Below are positions 2,497-33,247 of a stretch of DNA of 33,247 bases, piece by piece. This stretch comes from a virus. The translations under genes and the position numbers were made by a program. Under the pieces are notes generated by a model. It did no database searches and was not told the origin of the DNA. It saw only the letters and a list, made by a program, of their open reading frames with translations. How positions within the stretch are numbered: the stretch's first letter is position 1; every line of letters starts with the position of its first letter. The stretch spans positions 1 to 33,247 of IMG/VR virus record IMGVR_UViG_3300032220_000857; one strand, written 5' to 3'.

Positions 2497-2967
2497 ATGG
2501 CCAAGCCTGCAAATCTCTTTGTGCCGGCGTCGTTCACGGCCTGCACCAACTCGACCTCTGAGGTCGTGATGGGCACCGTGACGATTCCGGCTTTCTTCCT
2601 GCGCTCGCCGTACAAGCTCGGAATCAGCTACTCGGTCCAGACGCCGTCGACCAACTCGACCGACACCTTCGTTCCGAAGGTTAAGGTCAACGCCATCGTC
2701 GCGGCCTCGCTGCCAGCGCACGACGTCGTCAACAACGAGGTCATCGACGGACAGGCCGAAGGCATGTTCAAGGACGGCAAGCTGCACGTGCGCTCGCTGT
2801 CGGCGACTTCGGCTGGCGCGACTCTCGGCGGCGTTCACCTTGTCGACCAGACGGTGGACACCAACGCCGACGTCGTGATCACGCTCACTGGCCAGTGGTC
2901 GGTTGCCAACGCCGGCAACAACGCTGTCGCCAAAGAGTTCATCGTCTCGCTCCAGCCGCTCGACTGA
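2497..2967 (+). CDS. Putative head decoration / minor capsid protein
   Basis: A 156-residue, Ser/Thr/Val/Ala/Asn-rich protein with an all-beta look and no catalytic-looking residues. Alternating hydrophobic strands (VVMGTVTIPAFFL, TFVPKVKVNAIVAASLP, DVVITLTGQW) suggest a beta-sandwich or beta-tulip fold. It lies directly upstream of the major capsid gene (15-nt gap, own ribosome site). Small beta proteins at this position usually stabilise the shell at 3-fold axes or act as head decoration. A vertex or fibre-anchoring protein is the alternative. The family was not recognised by sequence; the role is positional inference. Confidence 0.45.
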   Translation: MAKPANLFVPASFTACTNSTSEVVMGTVTIPAFFLRSPYKLGISYSVQTPSTNSTDTFVPKVKVNAIVAASLPAHDVVNNEVIDGQAEGMFKDGKLHVRSLSATSAGATLGGVHLVDQTVDTNADVVITLTGQWSVANAGNNAVAKEFIVSLQPLD

Positions 2968-2982
2968 TAGGAGGGCATCCAC

Positions 2983-3861
2983 ATGGCGACCAACTTCAAC
3001 AATACCAACGTCAAGCAGACTGTCGTTGAGCGGTTCTTTGAGGGCCTGTTCAGCGTGTCGGAGCAGTGGGCGCAGGCTTACGACTACCGTCGCAACGACA
3101 TCGCGGACCTTCGCATCTCGCCGATTACGGGCGTGTCGTCCATCCCGAACTGGAACGGCGGCGACCTTCCCGTTCAGGAGCTCGAGGCTTTGACGCCGCA
3201 GCTCGTTCAGTACGAGAAGTTCGGCCTTCAGGTGCGCGTCGACAAGTACGATGCCAAGGACGTCCCTGAGTCGACCACGACCCTCCCGCAGCGCATCGGC
3301 GTGGCCACGGCCTCGACCTACGCGGCGAAGGCTGCCGAGGTTCTCGCGGGCGCGTTCTCGACCTCGACCACCTCGGTTGACGGGCTGGCGCTCTGCGCCA
3401 ACAACCACGTCACCAAGATTGGCACGCGCTCGAACAAGCTGACGACCGGCCTCGACTCTGCGGCCATCATGGCGGCTATCGCGATGTTCCGTCGCTGGCG
3501 GGATTATCAGGGTCTTCCTCGCGACGTTGTCGCCGAGGGTGGGTTCTACCTCATCATTCCGCCCGACCTCGAGGAGGCAGCCGGTCAGGCTCTCGGCTCG
3601 TCGGTCACGTCGGACCAGATGCAGGTGAACATGGCCGGGTCTTACGGCATCGACACCATCGTGTGGAACCACCTTACCGACGCGGACAACTGGTTCCTTG
3701 TCAGCAAGGCTGGTAGCCCGCTTATCTTCTGGGAGCGTTCGGCGCCTGACCTTCAGGTGCAGATTGACGAGGACAGCAAGGCGGGCAAGTACTCGCTCGA
3801 CTTCGCTATCAGCTCGGCCGTGTCGGCTCTGCCTGACGGCATCGTCGGTTCCGAGGTCTGA
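2983..3861 (+). CDS. Major capsid protein, Mu gpT-like
   Basis: A 292-residue protein with a GGAGG ribosome site before ATG 2983. It is shaped like the Mu major head subunit family (gpT, HK97 fold). The N-terminal arm ends in the RISPITGVSSIPNW segment. The mid-region has NKLTTGLDSAAIMAAIAMFR, followed by the telling FYLIIPPDLEEAAGQAL element, which matches the gpT-family VVPPDLE-type motif. The C-terminal portion has IVWNHLTDADNWFLVSKAG, then PLIFWERSAPDLQV and a final acidic strand. In the family this makes the icosahedral shell. Position after scaffold and decoration candidates agrees. There is no sign of truncation: length is close to that of gpT-type proteins. No cleaved pro-domain is obvious, consistent with a separate scaffold. 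Confidence 0.8.
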   Translation: MATNFNNTNVKQTVVERFFEGLFSVSEQWAQAYDYRRNDIADLRISPITGVSSIPNWNGGDLPVQELEALTPQLVQYEKFGLQVRVDKYDAKDVPESTTTLPQRIGVATASTYAAKAAEVLAGAFSTSTTSVDGLALCANNHVTKIGTRSNKLTTGLDSAAIMAAIAMFRRWRDYQGLPRDVVAEGGFYLIIPPDLEEAAGQALGSSVTSDQMQVNMAGSYGIDTIVWNHLTDADNWFLVSKAGSPLIFWERSAPDLQVQIDEDSKAGKYSLDFAISSAVSALPDGIVGSEV

Positions 3862-27363: not shown

Positions 27364-28758
27364 ATGAGCTGGGAAGCAGTGAATCAGTCGAGGTTCTGGG
27401 AGCTTGAGCCGATGCTTAACTTCCCGAACCCGGCCGCGGAGAGGCAGGACAAGCTAAAGCGGGCGGGCATTATCCGATGGGCGGGCCACGTTGAGCCGAT
27501 GGTCCACCTCTGGCAGCGTCAAGGGCAAGGCGTGGTCGTGCCGATGGGCGCGGCTTGGTCAGGCCAGCGAACCGACTGTGGGGGGATGGTGGAAGCCAGG
27601 GTGGGAAAGCAGCCCGGTTCCGGGATCCCTTCCCCCCATCCCCCAGCATATGAACGCGCGGTCAACGACTGCGAATGGCTAATGGACCACCAGAAGGAAG
27701 CGGTGAAGGCCGCCGGCAAGTGGCGGTCTGGCGTTATCGTCGCGCCCTGCGGCGCGGGCAAGACCCAGATGGGCGTCGCACTGCATCGGTTCGCGATGAC
27801 GGAGCGCCCGACGCTGGTGCTCGTTCACACGCGCGACCTCGCCACGCAGTGGGACCAGCGCGTGCGGCGGCTGCTGGGCACGGCGCCCGTCAGCCCGAGC
27901 GGCGCGGCGGCGTTCGTCAAGGCCGCAACGGCTGCGATGATTAACGTCAAGGGCATGGTCATTACGACGGTCCAGACGTTGGCCAAGGTTGACCCGTGGG
28001 ACCTGACGGGCATGCGGTTCGGCACGGTCATCCTCGACGAGGCACACCATGCGCCAGCCTCGACGTTTCAGGCCGTGCTCGGCAACATCGTCTGCGATAC
28101 CGTCTACGGCCTGACCGCTACGCCTAACCGGGACGACGGCTGGACTCCTGCGATGTATGCCTGGCTCGGTCCGAAGCGGTACGAGGTGCAGGCCCGAGAC
28201 CTTCAGCGGGTCGGGCTGACGATGGCGCCGACGGTCTGCGAGGTCGTGACGCCGTTCCATTCGTGGTCCGGCGACTTCACGACTATCGTCAATGACCTGA
28301 CCGACAGCGGGCCTAGGAACGCGCTCATCGCGCAGATGGTCGCCGAGCACGGGACGTTCCCGCAGCTGGTCTTGACGTCGCGTGTAGAGCACGCGGAGGC
28401 CCTTGCAGCGCTCATCCCGGACGCGGTGGCGGTCGTAGGTCGGACGCGCGACCGGGACGCGGCATTTGCGCGTGTGAGGGGCGGAGAGGCGAAGGTCCTG
28501 ATTGCGACCCAGCTCGCCGACGAGGGTCTCGACCTGCCCGAGCTCGTCGCGGTTCACCTCGTCGCGCCGTGCAGGGCAGGCAACCGCGTCATCCAGCGCA
28601 TCGGGCGCGTCATGCGTGCCAGCTCGGGCAAGGCGCGGCCGGTCGTCTACGACTACGTCGACAACATGTCGCTGCTTCAGTCGCAGTGGAGGTCACGGCG
28701 GAAGGCATGCCTTGAGCAGCTGCCCGGGGTCACGTTCACGCGGAAGGTGGTGGCATGA
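27364..28758 (+). CDS. SF2 DEAH-type DNA helicase
   Basis: A 464-residue protein; ATG 27364 with GGGAGG upstream. Motifs: Walker A VAPCGAGKTQM (about 126-136), motif II DEAHH (225-229), motif III TATP (251-254), and motif VI QRIGRVMR (411-418). These are the SF2 XPB/RAD25-like helicase and restriction-helicase pattern. The first 100 residues look like a small N-terminal domain with a GVVVPMGAAW element, then a Gly/Pro-rich linker. It would unwind DNA for replication or recombination. The stop overlaps the next gene's start (ATGA), and a large inverted repeat is embedded in its coding sequence at 27579-27645. Confidence 0.85.
   Translation: MSWEAVNQSRFWELEPMLNFPNPAAERQDKLKRAGIIRWAGHVEPMVHLWQRQGQGVVVPMGAAWSGQRTDCGGMVEARVGKQPGSGIPSPHPPAYERAVNDCEWLMDHQKEAVKAAGKWRSGVIVAPCGAGKTQMGVALHRFAMTERPTLVLVHTRDLATQWDQRVRRLLGTAPVSPSGAAAFVKAATAAMINVKGMVITTVQTLAKVDPWDLTGMRFGTVILDEAHHAPASTFQAVLGNIVCDTVYGLTATPNRDDGWTPAMYAWLGPKRYEVQARDLQRVGLTMAPTVCEVVTPFHSWSGDFTTIVNDLTDSGPRNALIAQMVAEHGTFPQLVLTSRVEHAEALAALIPDAVAVVGRTRDRDAAFARVRGGEAKVLIATQLADEGLDLPELVAVHLVAPCRAGNRVIQRIGRVMRASSGKARPVVYDYVDNMSLLQSQWRSRRKACLEQLPGVTFTRKVVA
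27579..27645 (+). repeat. Imperfect 17-bp inverted repeat inside the helicase gene
   Basis: TGGGGGG and downstream GATGG-type bases (27579-27595) pair with CTTCC, CCCCATC and CCCCA (27629-27645): about 15 of 17 pairs with one bulge and a small internal loop, on a 33-nt loop that has its own CCCG/CGGG stem. It encodes a Gly/Pro-rich linker (GSGIPSPHPPAY) between the N-terminal domain and the helicase core, and includes G and C runs. It may be an RNA stem that regulates expression, or a trace of an inserted small element. Confidence 0.45.
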
Positions 28759-31160
28759 CCGACAACATCACAGTGCTCCGGTGTCACGACAACGTCAGGC
28801 TGGCTAAGCTCATCACGCGGACGGCAACCGGCCTTGAGGTCAAGGGCTTCGATGACGCTCGGACGTTCGCATGGCGTCAGGTCACCGTCAGCGGGCTTGA
28901 CGACATTCAGCTGATGCTCGAGCAGCTGCGTGGCGACCCAAAGTCCTGCGTCATCCGGGGCGAGCCGATGGGGCACGTCGGGATGCAGTCCATCGTGAAT
29001 CGACGCCAGCACGTCGGAAGCGACGGCACGCGGCCCGACTGGGACCATCACGCGCTAGGCCGGCAGTGGGTGGCCTTCGACCTCGACAAGGTGGCGCAGG
29101 ACTCTTTCCGGGGCGACGTGCCGGTGCCGAACGAGGAGCAGGCGCGGGCAATCGTCTATCAGGTCAGGGCAGAGGTCATGCCTCCAGCGTTCGCGAAGGC
29201 CGCTTGCGTCTACAAGCTGTCGTCGTCGGCGGGGCTCAAGAGCTGGGACCGGGTGTCCATGCACCTCTGGTTCTGGCTTGACCGGCGCGTGCACGACCTG
29301 AGCCTGCGCGAATACTGCAAGGCGCACGGCTTTGACATCAGCTTTAGCAAGTGCGTTCAGCCTCACTACACGGCCGACCCTGTCTTTGAGGGCATGATGG
29401 ACCCGCTGGCTGGCGTCAGGCTCGGACGCTTGCCAGGGCGGGCCATCGTCGAGACACCGGCCGAGCTGCTCGACGGTGATGCGTGGCGAGCTCGAGACCA
29501 AGCCCGTAAGGACGCGGCACGAAAAGACCTCGAGAAGGCCGCGCGGGCGGTCATGGCCGATATCCCAACGTCTAGGGCAGCGACGCGGGCCTATGCCCTT
29601 CGAGCGCTTGCCGGGGGCTGTCAGGACGTCCTGAGCGCGGCGGAGGGCACGCGGCACGACCAGCTCATCAGGGTGGCCTACAACTTGGGCGGCTACTGCC
29701 AGCCGGGCTTCCTTGACGTCGGCGAGGTCATCCAGACGCTGACGCGGACGGTCGAGGCTGTCTTCCCAGCAGGCCGTCAGCGGGACGAGCTACGCACCGT
29801 AGCCGAGATGGTCGAAGGCGGCGCACGCAGCCCGCGCGACCTGAGCCACATCGGGCGCGCCAAGGGCAAGCTAAGCGTGGTCCGGCCCGAGCCGCCTGAG
29901 GAGGACGACGATGACGGCTTAGAGGTCATCGGAGCGACGGCGGTGCAGCCGGCGAGGAAGCCGAAGGCCAAGGGGCTCAAGTGGGCGCTGACGGACCGGG
30001 ACGGCAAGCCCGAGAACGTGTCCGAGAACGTCGAGGCGCTGCTTGAGTTTATGGGCGTCACGCTAAGGCGCAACCTCATGAACCACTCAACTGAGTGGGG
30101 CGGCGAGCTGACAAAGTCCATCCCGACGTCAGCGATGAACGCGGTCATGCTGGCGAACATCATCGATGCCGGTCAGCGGTTCGGCTTCACGCGGACGCAG
30201 CACCTTCAGGCGTACCTCGACAAGATTGAAGTCAAGCACGCCTACCACCCGGTCGCGGAGTGGGCGACAGGCACGCCCTGGGATGGCGAGGACCGCGTGC
30301 CGATGCTGCTGCACACCCTAGGTATCAGCCCGGACCTGATGGCTGAGCACGGAGCGTTACTGCATGAGCAGCTGTTGCGATGGTTCATCGCTGGCGGGAA
30401 GATGCTCGTCGGCGACCACGGCGTAGCGGCCGAAGGCGTCCTCGTCCTTCAGGGGCCACAAGGGACGGGGAAGACACGTTGGGTGAAGGCGCTGCTCGGA
30501 CCGAACCCGAACTGGATTGCCGAAGGCGTCATCCTCGACCCGGCGGACAAGGACAGCGTCATCCTAGCTACGTCGACGTTCATCGCAGAGCTAGGCGAGC
30601 TGGATGCTACCTACCGCAAGAGCGACATCGCGGCCCTAAAGGCTTTCCTGACGCGCGACAAAGACATCTACCGAAGTCCCTACGCCAAGCGCTCCGAGAC
30701 CTACCCTCGGCGGACCATCTTTGCGGCTACGGTCAACCCGTCGCAGTTCCTGGCCGATGACACCGGCAACCGTCGCTTCTGGGTCATGCCTGTCGGCCAG
30801 TGTCGAAGCCTTGACCCTTCGGCGTATCAGCAGGTCTGGGCGCAGGCCATAGCGCTAGGTAGGCGCGGAGAGCGGCACTGGCTCGACGATGCGTCAAGGC
30901 AAGATGCCGAACGCTTGCTTGAGCGGTTCCGGGACATCAGCCCGTGGGAAGACCTGTTCTTCGAGTGCTATCACCCGCCCGGACCGGAGACCGACAGTGT
31001 CGAGCGCGCGACGCGCTTCGGGGTCATCCGCGACGCGATGCGACCGGACAAGAGCTGGACCACGGCAGACGTCAAGCAGTTCGGCAAGTGGCTGCGCGGC
31101 CGGTACAAGTGCGCGAACCACAACGGGTCAGCCGCGTTCTACGTCCGGCGGAGGGACTGA
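28755..31160 (+). CDS. Bifunctional primase-helicase (N-terminal primase-like, C-terminal VirE-type SF3-like ATPase)
   Basis: An 801-residue protein starting in an ATGA overlap. The N-terminal half shows QWVAFDLDKV (D109, D111), as in archaeo-eukaryotic primase-type metal centres, with further WDRVSMHLWFWLD and a basic linker of about 100 residues. The acidic-to-basic linker at 375-415 is probably flexible. The C-terminal ATPase contains LQGPQGTGKTRW (Walker A, 566-576), AELGELD (Walker B, 611-617), then TIFAATVNPSQFL and GNRRFWVMPV (sensor and arginine region) typical of VirE/DUF5906-type helicases. It would be the replication initiator: unwinding and priming at the adjacent origin candidate. 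Large for a phage primase, and lacking a DnaB-type helicase in the window, it probably covers both roles. Confidence 0.8.
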   Translation: MTDNITVLRCHDNVRLAKLITRTATGLEVKGFDDARTFAWRQVTVSGLDDIQLMLEQLRGDPKSCVIRGEPMGHVGMQSIVNRRQHVGSDGTRPDWDHHALGRQWVAFDLDKVAQDSFRGDVPVPNEEQARAIVYQVRAEVMPPAFAKAACVYKLSSSAGLKSWDRVSMHLWFWLDRRVHDLSLREYCKAHGFDISFSKCVQPHYTADPVFEGMMDPLAGVRLGRLPGRAIVETPAELLDGDAWRARDQARKDAARKDLEKAARAVMADIPTSRAATRAYALRALAGGCQDVLSAAEGTRHDQLIRVAYNLGGYCQPGFLDVGEVIQTLTRTVEAVFPAGRQRDELRTVAEMVEGGARSPRDLSHIGRAKGKLSVVRPEPPEEDDDDGLEVIGATAVQPARKPKAKGLKWALTDRDGKPENVSENVEALLEFMGVTLRRNLMNHSTEWGGELTKSIPTSAMNAVMLANIIDAGQRFGFTRTQHLQAYLDKIEVKHAYHPVAEWATGTPWDGEDRVPMLLHTLGISPDLMAEHGALLHEQLLRWFIAGGKMLVGDHGVAAEGVLVLQGPQGTGKTRWVKALLGPNPNWIAEGVILDPADKDSVILATSTFIAELGELDATYRKSDIAALKAFLTRDKDIYRSPYAKRSETYPRRTIFAATVNPSQFLADDTGNRRFWVMPVGQCRSLDPSAYQQVWAQAIALGRRGERHWLDDASRQDAERLLERFRDISPWEDLFFECYHPPGPETDSVERATRFGVIRDAMRPDKSWTTADVKQFGKWLRGRYKCANHNGSAAFYVRRRD

Positions 31161-31164
31161 GGCC

Positions 31165-31398
31165 ATGTGGGCCATGTGGGTCTCGTGTGGGTCACGAATC
31201 GGCGGAGACCCACATGACTTGGGGCGCCTGCAAGGCGGGGTTGAGCACCCTATGTGGGTCATGTGGGTCTCTCTCTCTCTAAATATCTAATGTGTGTATA
31301 TGTATATATATAGGCGGCTTGGCTACTCCACCACACGCCCACATGCACCCACACGACCCACAAGGCCCACATGACCCACATGCCCCACATGCCCACAT
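31165..31398. other. Putative replication origin: 9-bp iterons flanking an AT-rich core
   Basis: Left arm, direct 9-mers ATGTGGGTC or close variants: 31165, 31174, 31185, 31252, 31261; one inverted copy at 31207. Right arm, inverted copies (GACCCACAT-type): 31337, 31347, 31355, 31364, 31373, 31382, 31391; the last five run head to tail at exact 9-base steps. Between the arms (31270-31312) lies an AT-rich core with alternating CT, TG and TATATATATA, the only such stretch in a GC-rich window. Iterons plus a low-melting core right after a primase-helicase gene are the standard phage or plasmid origin layout. The right-arm iterons run into the start of the next gene. Confidence 0.75.
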
Positions 31399-31718
31399 CA
31401 GAGGCGACCGAGCAGGCGAAGGTGGTCGCTTACCTACGCGGACGGGGCTGGCTGTTCACCGCGACGGCTAACGGGGTCGGAGCAGGCCGGATGCAGTGGG
31501 TCCAGCTCGCGCGGTCGGGAGTCGCTCCAGGCGTTCCGGATTTGCTGGTCTTTGAGGCGGTCGCGGGCTACCGTGGCGTGGCCATTGAGCTCAAGACAGC
31601 CCGGGGCAAGGTCAGCATTGAACAGGCGCGTTGGATTGAAGCCCTTCGCGATCGCGGCTGGTACGCCTTCGTCGCCTACGGAGCAGACGAGGCCATCGCA
31701 AAGCTGGAGGCGCTGTGA
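31371..31718 (+). CDS. VRR-NUC domain nuclease
   Basis: A 115-residue protein; from ATG 31371, but ATGs at 31380 and 31389 are also possible because the first seven codons (MTHMPHM) are made of iteron sequence and there is no ribosome site. The VRR-NUC pattern is clear: EATEQAKVVAYLRGRGW (residues about 12-28), APGVPDLLVFE (PD motif, about residue 54), GVAIELKTARGKVSIEQARW (E-x-K and Q residues, about 68-87). These nucleases are PD-(D/E)XK enzymes, many acting as Holliday-junction or flap resolvases in phages. It sits between the origin and ssb, so resolution of replication intermediates is likely. Confidence 0.8.
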   Translation: MTHMPHMPTSEATEQAKVVAYLRGRGWLFTATANGVGAGRMQWVQLARSGVAPGVPDLLVFEAVAGYRGVAIELKTARGKVSIEQARWIEALRDRGWYAFVAYGADEAIAKLEAL

Positions 31719-31912
31719 CGACGTGGAAGGGGCCTAGCCCTCGCGCGATGACCTTGGGGCTATGGGGAGAGCACCTTGCTACCGTCGAAGCGCTACAGAG
31801 GGCACTACAGGGGCAAGGCGTCGACATCACGCTGGCGGACGTGGTCCGGGACCTCGTGAAGGCGTACGGGCCAAAGTGGTTGGAAGAGATCGAAGGGGAG
31901 ATACAGGCATGA
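31715..31912 (+). CDS. Small protein between nuclease and SSB
   Basis: A 65-residue protein with GTG start at 31715 in a GTGA overlap, GGAGG nearby. Layout: helix MTLGLWGEHLATVEALQRALQ, short turn, helix ITLADVVRDLVKAYGPKWLEEI. This could be a small helical bundle or ribbon-like regulator. The strong coupling to ssb by ATGA suggests a replication accessory. Family not recognised. Confidence 0.55.
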   Translation: MTTWKGPSPRAMTLGLWGEHLATVEALQRALQGQGVDITLADVVRDLVKAYGPKWLEEIEGEIQA

Positions 31913-32283
31913 ACAAGGCGATACTGATGGGGCGGCTCGGCCGCGATCCTGAACTGAAGCGGACGCAGGCAGGCGGGGCTGTGGTCTCGGTCTCACTGGC
32001 GACCAACGAGCGCGAGAAGCAGGGCGACGCGTGGGTGGACGTGACCGAGTGGCACTACATTGTCGCCTTCGGCCGCACGGCGGAGCTCATGGCCGAGCGC
32101 TGCCGGAAGGGCGACCCGGTGCTAGTCGACGGGCGAATGAAGACACGCAAGTGGCAGGGTCAGGACGGGACTGAGCGCCAGCGTACTGAGGTCGTGGCCT
32201 CGGACGTCCGGTTCCTTGCCAAGATGCCATCAGAGCGCGGCGAGATGCCAGCGGGCGGCGGCGGCGGGGAGATGCCCTTCTGA
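31909..32283 (+). CDS. ssb: Single-stranded DNA-binding protein
   Basis: A 124-residue protein; ATG 31909 (GGGGAG upstream), coupled to its upstream gene by ATGA and to the downstream one by TGATG. OB-fold SSB features: NKAILMGRLGRDPELK (residues 2-17), VVSVSLATNEREKQG, WVDVTEWHYIVAFGRTAEL, GDPVLVDGRMKTRKWQ, and a final VASDVRFLAK. The C-terminus is a Gly-rich linker ending in EMPF, the form of the bacterial SSB tail (usually DDDIPF), which docks partner proteins. It would coat single-stranded DNA during replication and recombination. Confidence 0.9.
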   Translation: MNKAILMGRLGRDPELKRTQAGGAVVSVSLATNEREKQGDAWVDVTEWHYIVAFGRTAELMAERCRKGDPVLVDGRMKTRKWQGQDGTERQRTEVVASDVRFLAKMPSERGEMPAGGGGGEMPF

Positions 32284-33247
32284 TGCAAGGCGGGGTCAAG
32301 ATACTGCGCCGGGAGCGCGAGCAGGAGCGGTCGACCACGTGGCTACGCAACCGCGGGGTCGGGCGTGAGATGCTGCGTCTCATCCAGTCCAAGGGCGCGC
32401 CAGTTCGGCGCATCTTCCGTCAGCTGGCCGAGCTTGGCGTGCCGTGCTCGATGACTGAAGGCCTAGTCGGGCACAAGCTGGCCGATTGGGCCAGTGCAAA
32501 GCCTCGGCATGAGGCAGCGCTTCAAGCCCTGTGGCAACTGGCCGAGACCTATACCGACGTCGCCAACCGTGTCCCTGGCGCGCTCGAGGGCCTAGGCGAG
32601 GTGGTGCTAGAGGCGCAGGCGCTGGGTGTGTACTACGACCCGCCCGCGTGCGCGGACGACCTCATCCGTAAGCGTGCCCGGAAGGGTCGCGAGCGGTTCG
32701 TCGAGGCGGAGCAGTACACTGCGCGGCCGGGTCGGACCATCGTCCAAGAACAGCTGATGGCCATCGTCCGGCGCAGCCTGTCTGCCGAGCCGATGCCGCT
32801 TAGTCGGACGGTTCAGCAGGTGGTCGACCTCAGGCTTCAAGGCATGAACACGGCCGAGATATCGATGCATGTCACGCACTCGGAGCACTGGGTCGGCGAG
32901 GTTTTGAAGCGTCCCGAGGTCGTCGCTGCCATCGCGGCCGTGAAGCCGCTCGACGAGGTTGAGGCGCTGTGCCGGGCTCGGACCAACGCCAAGCGAGCGC
33001 AGACGCTGCGGGAGGCCAACGCGGCAGGCAAGGTGCCGAAGTCGGCAGGCCGTCCTAAGTCGGCGAAGCTAGACGATGCGTGGCTAATCGCGCGGCGTGA
33101 CGAGGGATGGACGCTCCAGCGAATCGCGGTCGCACTCGGGACCACGAAGCAGACCATCGCGTACCGGATGCGGCAGGCCGACGCCGCGCGTGCCAACGAC
33201 CTCCCCACCCCCTTAGAGCGGCCAGGCGAGCCGGGCGGCTTGCCCCC
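32283..33247 (+). CDS. Double helix-turn-helix DNA-binding protein (partial at right edge)
   Basis: A frame open from ATG 32283 (overlapping ssb's TGA) to the window end: 321 codons and two bases without a stop. The N-terminus is basic and helical (ILRREREQERSTTWLRNRGVG). Two HTH-like segments are visible: residues about 175-213 (RTVQQVVDLRLQGMNTAEIS, then HSEHWVGEVLKRPEVV) and about 267-300 (DEGWTLQRIAVALGTTKQTIAYRM). Terminase small subunits and DNA-binding regulators have such motifs, and the genes that should follow (terminase, portal) are missing from the window; a terminase small subunit or late-gene regulator is a candidate. Family not certain. Confidence 0.55.
   Translation, partial: MQGGVKILRREREQERSTTWLRNRGVGREMLRLIQSKGAPVRRIFRQLAELGVPCSMTEGLVGHKLADWASAKPRHEAALQALWQLAETYTDVANRVPGALEGLGEVVLEAQALGVYYDPPACADDLIRKRARKGRERFVEAEQYTARPGRTIVQEQLMAIVRRSLSAEPMPLSRTVQQVVDLRLQGMNTAEISMHVTHSEHWVGEVLKRPEVVAAIAAVKPLDEVEALCRARTNAKRAQTLREANAAGKVPKSAGRPKSAKLDDAWLIARRDEGWTLQRIAVALGTTKQTIAYRMRQADAARANDLPTPLERPGEPGGLP

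Follow-up and report, generated by a model that had tools for sequence, protein, structure and literature searches.

Results

Organization of the replication module

The DNA analyzed here, hereafter called the window, comprises one complete IMG/VR record (33,247 bases). Its replication module runs in the order SF2 helicase, primase-helicase with a VapE domain (PF05272), array of 9-bp repeats (iterons), VRR-NUC nuclease, single-strand DNA-binding protein (SSB), and HTH protein (Table 1); RecT, Thy1, and YqaJ genes are on the opposite strand at 23.9 to 26.9 kb. The primase-helicase gene (28755-31160) encodes 801 aa. With tblastn, no match to its N-terminal primase-like half (28755-29976) was found in 50,697 phage records, and judged by its sequence, this half is a putative divergent primase family. 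The helicase half (29977-31160) is a probable origin-binding initiator helicase. The closest PDB sequence to the helicase is 7pds (E 2.9e-27), deposited with six chains as "Similar to D. nodosus vapE," which we take to be a staphylococcal island replication helicase. AlphaFold2, run with a four-sequence alignment, gave no usable model of a DNA-binding domain (pLDDT 33).

Based on alignment with two relatives, L002 and L039, we infer that the conserved start of VRR-NUC is the ATG at 31389, as opposed to the ORF-finder start at 31371. The true start of the SSB gene is probably downstream of 31762. The last right-arm copies of the array overlap the VRR-NUC gene start. The right arm also fills the place of the VRR-NUC ribosome-binding site (31371-31389), and no Shine-Dalgarno-like sequence is visible there.

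Table 1. Replication genes and iteron array features in the window
Feature	Position	Strand	Evidence and remarks
SF2 (DEAD/ResIII) DNA helicase gene, 464 aa	27364..28758	+	phrog_16 DNA helicase, E 2.5e-59; PF04851, E 3.9e-20
Primase-helicase gene, N-terminal half, about 408 aa, probable primase half	28755..29976	+	residues 1-226 match phrog_16950 DNA primase
Primase-helicase gene, VapE-like AAA+/SF3-type helicase half plus C-terminal domain	29977..31160	+	PF05272, E 2.8e-46, aa 508-724
Left arm, outer group of three + iterons	31165..31193	+	starts 31165, 31174, 31185; spacing kept in L039 and L002 with other iterons
Single inverted iteron within left arm	31207..31215	-	start 31207; counterpart at +42 (L039) and +39 (L002) from first copy
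Left arm, inner doublet of two exact + iterons	31252..31269	+	starts 31252, 31261; kept at +87/+96 (L039) and +85/+94 (L002)
AT-rich core, presumed melting site, opening with a (TC)n tract	31270..31312	.	A+T content versus arms; one base change in L001
Right arm, seven inverted iterons	31336..31398	-	starts 31336, 31346, 31355, 31364, 31373, 31382, 31390; three clear inverted copies in L039 and three to four in L002, same place
VRR-NUC nuclease gene	31389..31718	+	PF08774, E 4.7e-9; phrog_824, phrog_5702
SSB gene, completing the replication module	31762..32283	+	PF00436, E 1.9e-32

The array is mirrored around an AT-rich core

The array follows the stop codon of the VapE-type primase-helicase gene and reaches into the first codons of VRR-NUC. 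Searching for ATGTGGGTC and its complement at ≤2 mismatches gives 13 copies within 31165-31398, in agreement with a first-pass annotation of this DNA that had reported at least 13 copies on both sides of a 43-base AT-rich core. That annotation had also described a mostly direct left arm and an entirely inverted right arm, and this holds: the left arm reads + + + - + + (five of six copies +), and seven of seven right-arm copies are inverted, giving a mirrored-order score of 12 against a shuffle maximum of 5. Likewise, five right-arm copies, from 31346 to 31382, are separated by steps of exactly 9 bases. The core is 43 bases long, with an A+T content of about 70 to 77% compared to 30 to 43% in the arms around it; a weak 14th match at 31290, within the TG run of the core, is probably incidental.

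Such clustering is far from chance expectation. Five exact copies are present in a 261-bp stretch, compared to a mean of 0.017 (maximum, 1) in 2,000 dinucleotide shuffles, and 10 copies at ≤1 mismatch, compared to a mean of 0.27 (maximum, 3). Outside the array, the 33-kb record has no exact copy and nowhere more than one one-mismatch copy per 240 bp, and 12 of the 21 TGTGGG/CCCACA hexamers of the record fall in 31166-31397.

The 31207 iteron plus its flanks pairs with 31173-31184 at 12 of 12 bases. Complementarity in this left-arm inverted pair (CATGTGGGTCTC and GAGACCCACATG, 31173-31216) runs past the iteron, with counterparts in L039 (13 nt, 92%) and L002 (13 nt, 100%), and the hairpin may matter as well. 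The inverted copy and the inner doublet are separated by a short CGCCTGCAAGGC-like sequence (31219-31240) that is not an iteron and that seems to be conserved in part in both L002 and L039.

A consensus scan, the only method used for these signals, found no promoter-like or terminator-like sites at the array. Rfam gave no match for the array region, the phage collection held no DNA similar to it, and no prophage relatives were found in genome contigs. A GC-skew switch at the array, as looked for after the first-pass annotation, is absent both from the window and from a 38.8-kb relative, G001, such that skew gives the origin reading no support.

Iterons are exchanged together with the helicase half

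Only three relatives carry the locus. In L001, the protein is 97% identical to that of the window and all iterons are kept, with one change in the core. L002 is more informative. Compared per 100 bases, its DNA has 83 to 98% identity with that of the window across the N-terminal primase half (about 92% over the half), 32 to 68% from about 29977 to 31376, and then 80 to 96% in VRR-NUC and SSB. The block exchanged as a unit comprises the VapE helicase half and the whole array, with iterons of the CATGACGCA type, and L002 looks like a natural recombinant. In alignment, the N-terminal halves of the window and L002 are nearly identical, and yet the L002 iterons differ entirely and lack GTGG.

In L039, the primase is a different protein encoded by a separate gene, and the VapE helicase stands alone, with the N-terminal half of the window protein absent. 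The helicase core has about 80 to 95% DNA identity with the window in most 60-bp bins, whereas the C-terminal part of the gene (45 to 68%) and the array (35 to 57%) have diverged jointly; in VRR-NUC, identity is back to about 95%. The L039 iteron, AAGTGGCCC, resembles that of the window, and both contain GTGG. The SF2 helicase DNA is about 92% identical in the window, L002, and L039.

Despite these sequence changes, the layout is retained. Counted from the first copy, with a minus sign for the single inverted left-arm copy, the first six copies are at 0, 9, 20, -42, 87, and 96 in the window, 0, 10, 21, -42, 87, and 96 in L039, and 0, 10, 20, -39, 85, and 94 in L002 (leaving out a weak extra L002 match at +73). 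The positions agree to within 3 bases, and the right arms are inverted in all three, with arm copy numbers of 6 and 7 in the window and 6 and 3 in L039. Spacing kept nearly to the base while the copies change sequence is as should be expected for the sites of one assembling protein complex.

As the helicase half and array of L002 were exchanged jointly with the primase half unchanged, iteron identity appears to track the helicase half and not the primase. Whereas the first-pass annotation named the primase-helicase or the SF2 helicase as initiator, the most likely reader of the iterons is the VapE helicase half, given the near identity of the N-terminal halves of the window and L002 and the conservation of the SF2 gene in the window, L002, and L039; the primase part and SF2, nearly unchanged in L002 despite its new iterons, are poor candidates. 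Among 13 VapE-iteron pairs, proteins with more similar C-terminal parts tend to have more similar iterons (Mantel P = 0.002), but this holds equally for the helicase core, and therefore an effect of the domain is not separable here from common descent.

Arrays follow VapE genes in other replicons

To place the locus in a wider setting, we use a sample hand-picked from 628 matching records, which is not a census. Significant iterons are present in the gap after VapE in most sampled Gram-positive phages, each set being different. Iterons follow VapE in Corynebacterium phages CL31 and Lederberg, Paenibacillus FutureBee, Staphylococcus phi2958PVL and QT1, Streptococcus Javan630 and phiARI0468-2, Lactococcus bIL312, Heliusvirales NatCom_18656, the satellite Javan608, Pseudomonas Pae_U5, Rhodobacter RcCWillis, and the 9.9-kb plasmid pPSEST02. 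CL31, Lederberg, FutureBee, phi2958PVL, and QT1 are like the window in having iterons on both strands between VapE and VRR-NUC, with an AT-rich part. In contrast to the window, their iterons are GGGACAAGC, ACTGCAACA, GATGCAACA, and CGTCCCTT, and their SF2 gene comes after VRR-NUC, not before VapE.

The mirrored order is less uniform than the presence of iterons. In several AT-rich Gram-positive gaps, including that of Streptococcus thermophilus phage Sfi21 (9 of 60 shuffles reach the score), the mirror score is not significant, whereas the orientation-free iteron count is. In phiARI0468-2, iterons flank an AT-rich region mostly in one orientation. No array is found directly after VapE in FoX3, Mica, Persinger, and ctype202 (Gram-negative or environmental) or in Bacteroides BKO1-1, and the count in NatCom_6392 is not significant; therefore, position beside VapE is by itself no proof of an origin. 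The Alux-21 array, significant in count, was not counted, its CAG-type repeat looking coding. In pPSEST02 (2925-3490), AlpA and VapE genes are accompanied by mirrored TGGTGGGAT iterons around an AT-rich stretch, and the plasmid is possibly a satellite-derived replicon.

The same 9-mer recurs in NrS-1-like PrimPol phages

We found the exact doublet ATGTGGGTCATGTGGGTC in 35 viral stretches, including the contig of L001, compared to 4 contigs, none with an array, for an 18-mer control built from the permuted 9-mer. There are 20 other doublet stretches with clusters in both orientations, and 18 of the doublet loci encode an NrS-1-like PrimPol, although many of these contigs are closely related to each other and represent few independent cases. 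Like the window, these IMG/VR phages have ATGTGGGTC arrays, many of them mirrored. Unlike it, they encode an unrelated primase-helicase (hhalign finds no convincing relationship of PrimPol to the window protein; probability, 5%), and a distance of about 2 to 2.5 kb or more separates the array, which is near terminase genes, from the primase gene. Mirrored ATGTGGGTC arrays near terminase/portal genes are seen in L003, L005, L006, L010, L017, L022, L033, and related loci. Either the 9-mer arose twice, or GTGGG may somehow suit such origins; an origin served by an adjacent VapE helicase leaves its presence in phages with an unrelated PrimPol unexplained. The L039-type doublet was rejected as an origin marker, as its 11 contigs look to be mostly collagen-like coding repeats or one recurring element.

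Genome ends

The window (at 33247), L001 (at 10483), and G001 share an end, with the window and G001 agreeing within 1 base. G001 starts and ends with GCTTGCCCC, beside the terminase gene. The shared end may be a natural genome end or reflect a circular record with a short overlap. About 3.1 kb (terminase and part of the portal region), found between the two ends in relatives, is missing from the window.

Discussion

A probable mirrored origin beside a VapE helicase

Taken together, the data make it very probable that this stretch is a SaPI/PICI-type replication origin of a tailed phage, at which the adjacent VapE helicase half would bind the iterons and load as two opposed hexamers. The origin reading is well supported because the position equals that of the Sfi21 origin, arrays recur after other VapE genes, helicase half and iterons are exchanged jointly, and the layout is conserved. 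An origin served by the adjacent primase-helicase, as the first-pass annotation proposed, is thus the likely interpretation. By analogy with the SaPI system, the helicase half of the VapE-type protein, probably via its C-terminal domain, would bind the 9-bp iterons, and the opposed arms would lead it to assemble as two oppositely facing hexamers flanking the AT-rich core. The hexamers would melt the core and set up two divergent forks, to be primed by the N-terminal primase half with the aid of the SSB encoded next door.

Could the 9-mers instead be primase recognition sites, with the primase half starting primers at GTGG, much as NrS-1 PrimPol does at GTGG or TTTGGTTA? NrS-1 PrimPol uses 5'-GTGG-3' efficiently (PMC8718748), GTGG is in the iterons of both the window and L039, and 9-mer arrays are also found in NrS-1-like PrimPol phages. 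However, one nearly identical primase half goes with entirely different, GTGG-free iterons in L002, a window-like iteron goes with an unrelated, separate primase in L039, and most other VapE origins lack GTGG, which together leave this explanation improbable. We give slightly less weight still to an array that is solely an operator, through which VapE or another regulator controls VRR-NUC, SSB, and later genes. Origin iterons can also act as autoregulatory sites, and for an array located within an operon, with a right arm that overlaps the VRR-NUC start, an operator role may exist in addition to origin function. As the main role it is very unlikely: the scan above found no promoter-like or terminator-like site, control rarely needs 13 copies around a melting core at conserved spacing, and the equivalent place in Sfi21 is annotated as an origin.

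The first-pass annotation also raised the possibility of a large RNA stem. Pairing of the arms, as RNA or single-stranded DNA, is thermodynamically possible (folding z, -5.4), and all three relatives have an inverted pair in the left arm, but good folding is a trivial consequence of inverted copies in any role, and a stem is not needed to account for the array. One long stem as the functional element is highly improbable, as the unequal arm copy numbers and irregular spacing misfit the required duplex, the direct repetition inside each arm goes unexplained, and Rfam has no match. Repeat arrays serve partition and packaging elsewhere, and the record does end about 1.85 kb beyond the array, at the point shared with L001 that is a possible genome end. 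We nonetheless consider a partition or packaging site barely credible: the array does not coincide with that end, beyond which the terminase and portal genes of G001 start, and the iterons were exchanged with the helicase half and not with packaging genes.

The mirrored design preferred here, an origin read by the VapE helicase half, is already known from phage satellites, and the most interesting part is the exchange of helicase half and iterons as a cassette. The helicase half and iterons may constitute an exchangeable origin-specificity cassette, swapped under selection, in which the spacing stays fixed and unrelated 9-mers can be accommodated; we put this forward tentatively, as somewhat short of an even chance. 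If true, swapping could offer, e.g., escape from titration by resident origin copies or from satellite parasitism. The window, L002, and L039 are natural chimaeras of fixed layout with different iterons and exchanged helicase halves, which makes the iteron-reading residues testable, as well as origin specificity as a phage incompatibility or immunity type. Since complete phages infecting several hosts, as well as a plasmid, combine VapE with mirrored iterons, the sample suggests that this layout may be a general origin form of VapE-type replicons.

Comparison with known origins

Two other assignments were considered and rejected. A classical iteron plasmid origin has direct iterons on one strand and a small winged-helix Rep acting with host DnaA, whereas the arms of the window are opposed and the adjacent gene is a primase-helicase. 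The window is also not taken to be a satellite element itself, as its relative G001 encodes terminase and portal, and the window has a weak tape-measure match in a block of large genes.

The closest match is to SaPI/PICI origins. SaPI Rep binds iterons just downstream of its own gene through its C-terminal domain, and for Cch2, a related helicase of SCCmec, binding of the isolated C-terminal domain to the putative Cch2 origin has been demonstrated (PMC7581432). PICI origins comprise an AT-rich region flanked by two iteron sets, an organization described in 2018 as common to no known bacterial replicon except PICIs (PMC6092414). In SaPIbov1, SaPI5, and EcCICFT073, the origin is directly 3' of the initiator helicase gene with opposed repeats, and primase and helicase initiator are sometimes fused, as in the window (PMC6092414, PMC7581432, PMC9894130). 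The window shares these features: its first iteron, at 31165, is immediately 3' of the VapE stop codon (31160), two iteron sets flank the AT-rich region, repeats on the two sides of the core are opposed, and the putative initiator belongs, by sequence family, to the VapE/D5-type helicases, a self-loading class (PF05272, 7pds). Thus, the mirrored orientation, which the first-pass annotation considered unusual, is a published arrangement, for which head-to-head hexamers have been proposed (PMC9894130, PMC6092414). The window differs from SaPI/PICI in being from a tailed phage with its own structural genes, in having VRR-NUC and SSB genes next, in its GC-rich iterons, and in being known here from sequence.

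For SaPI, the published interpretation is that the arrangement serves to load two hexamers head to head in the manner of SV40, whose origin it is said to mirror (PMC9894130). The SF3 initiator helicases of SV40 and papillomavirus likewise form two opposed hexamers at the origin, although these eukaryotic viruses, unlike the window, have N-terminal origin-binding domains (PMC7581432).

Among phages, the nearest parallel is the PER element of Sfi21. Its record labels the equivalent gap "origin of replication, 302 bp non-coding region, phage inhibitory sequence," and according to a later paper, the element is an independent origin that becomes active upon infection (PMC6356513). As in the window, a noncoding stretch directly follows an NTPase/primase gene, with SF2 helicase and SSB genes in the same module, and mirrored doublets surround an AT core, there as two TTAGTTAC copies on one side and two inverted copies on the other. 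The iteron and the next gene are different and the primase gene is separate, and origin activity is reported for Sfi21, whereas for the window it is predicted from the DNA.
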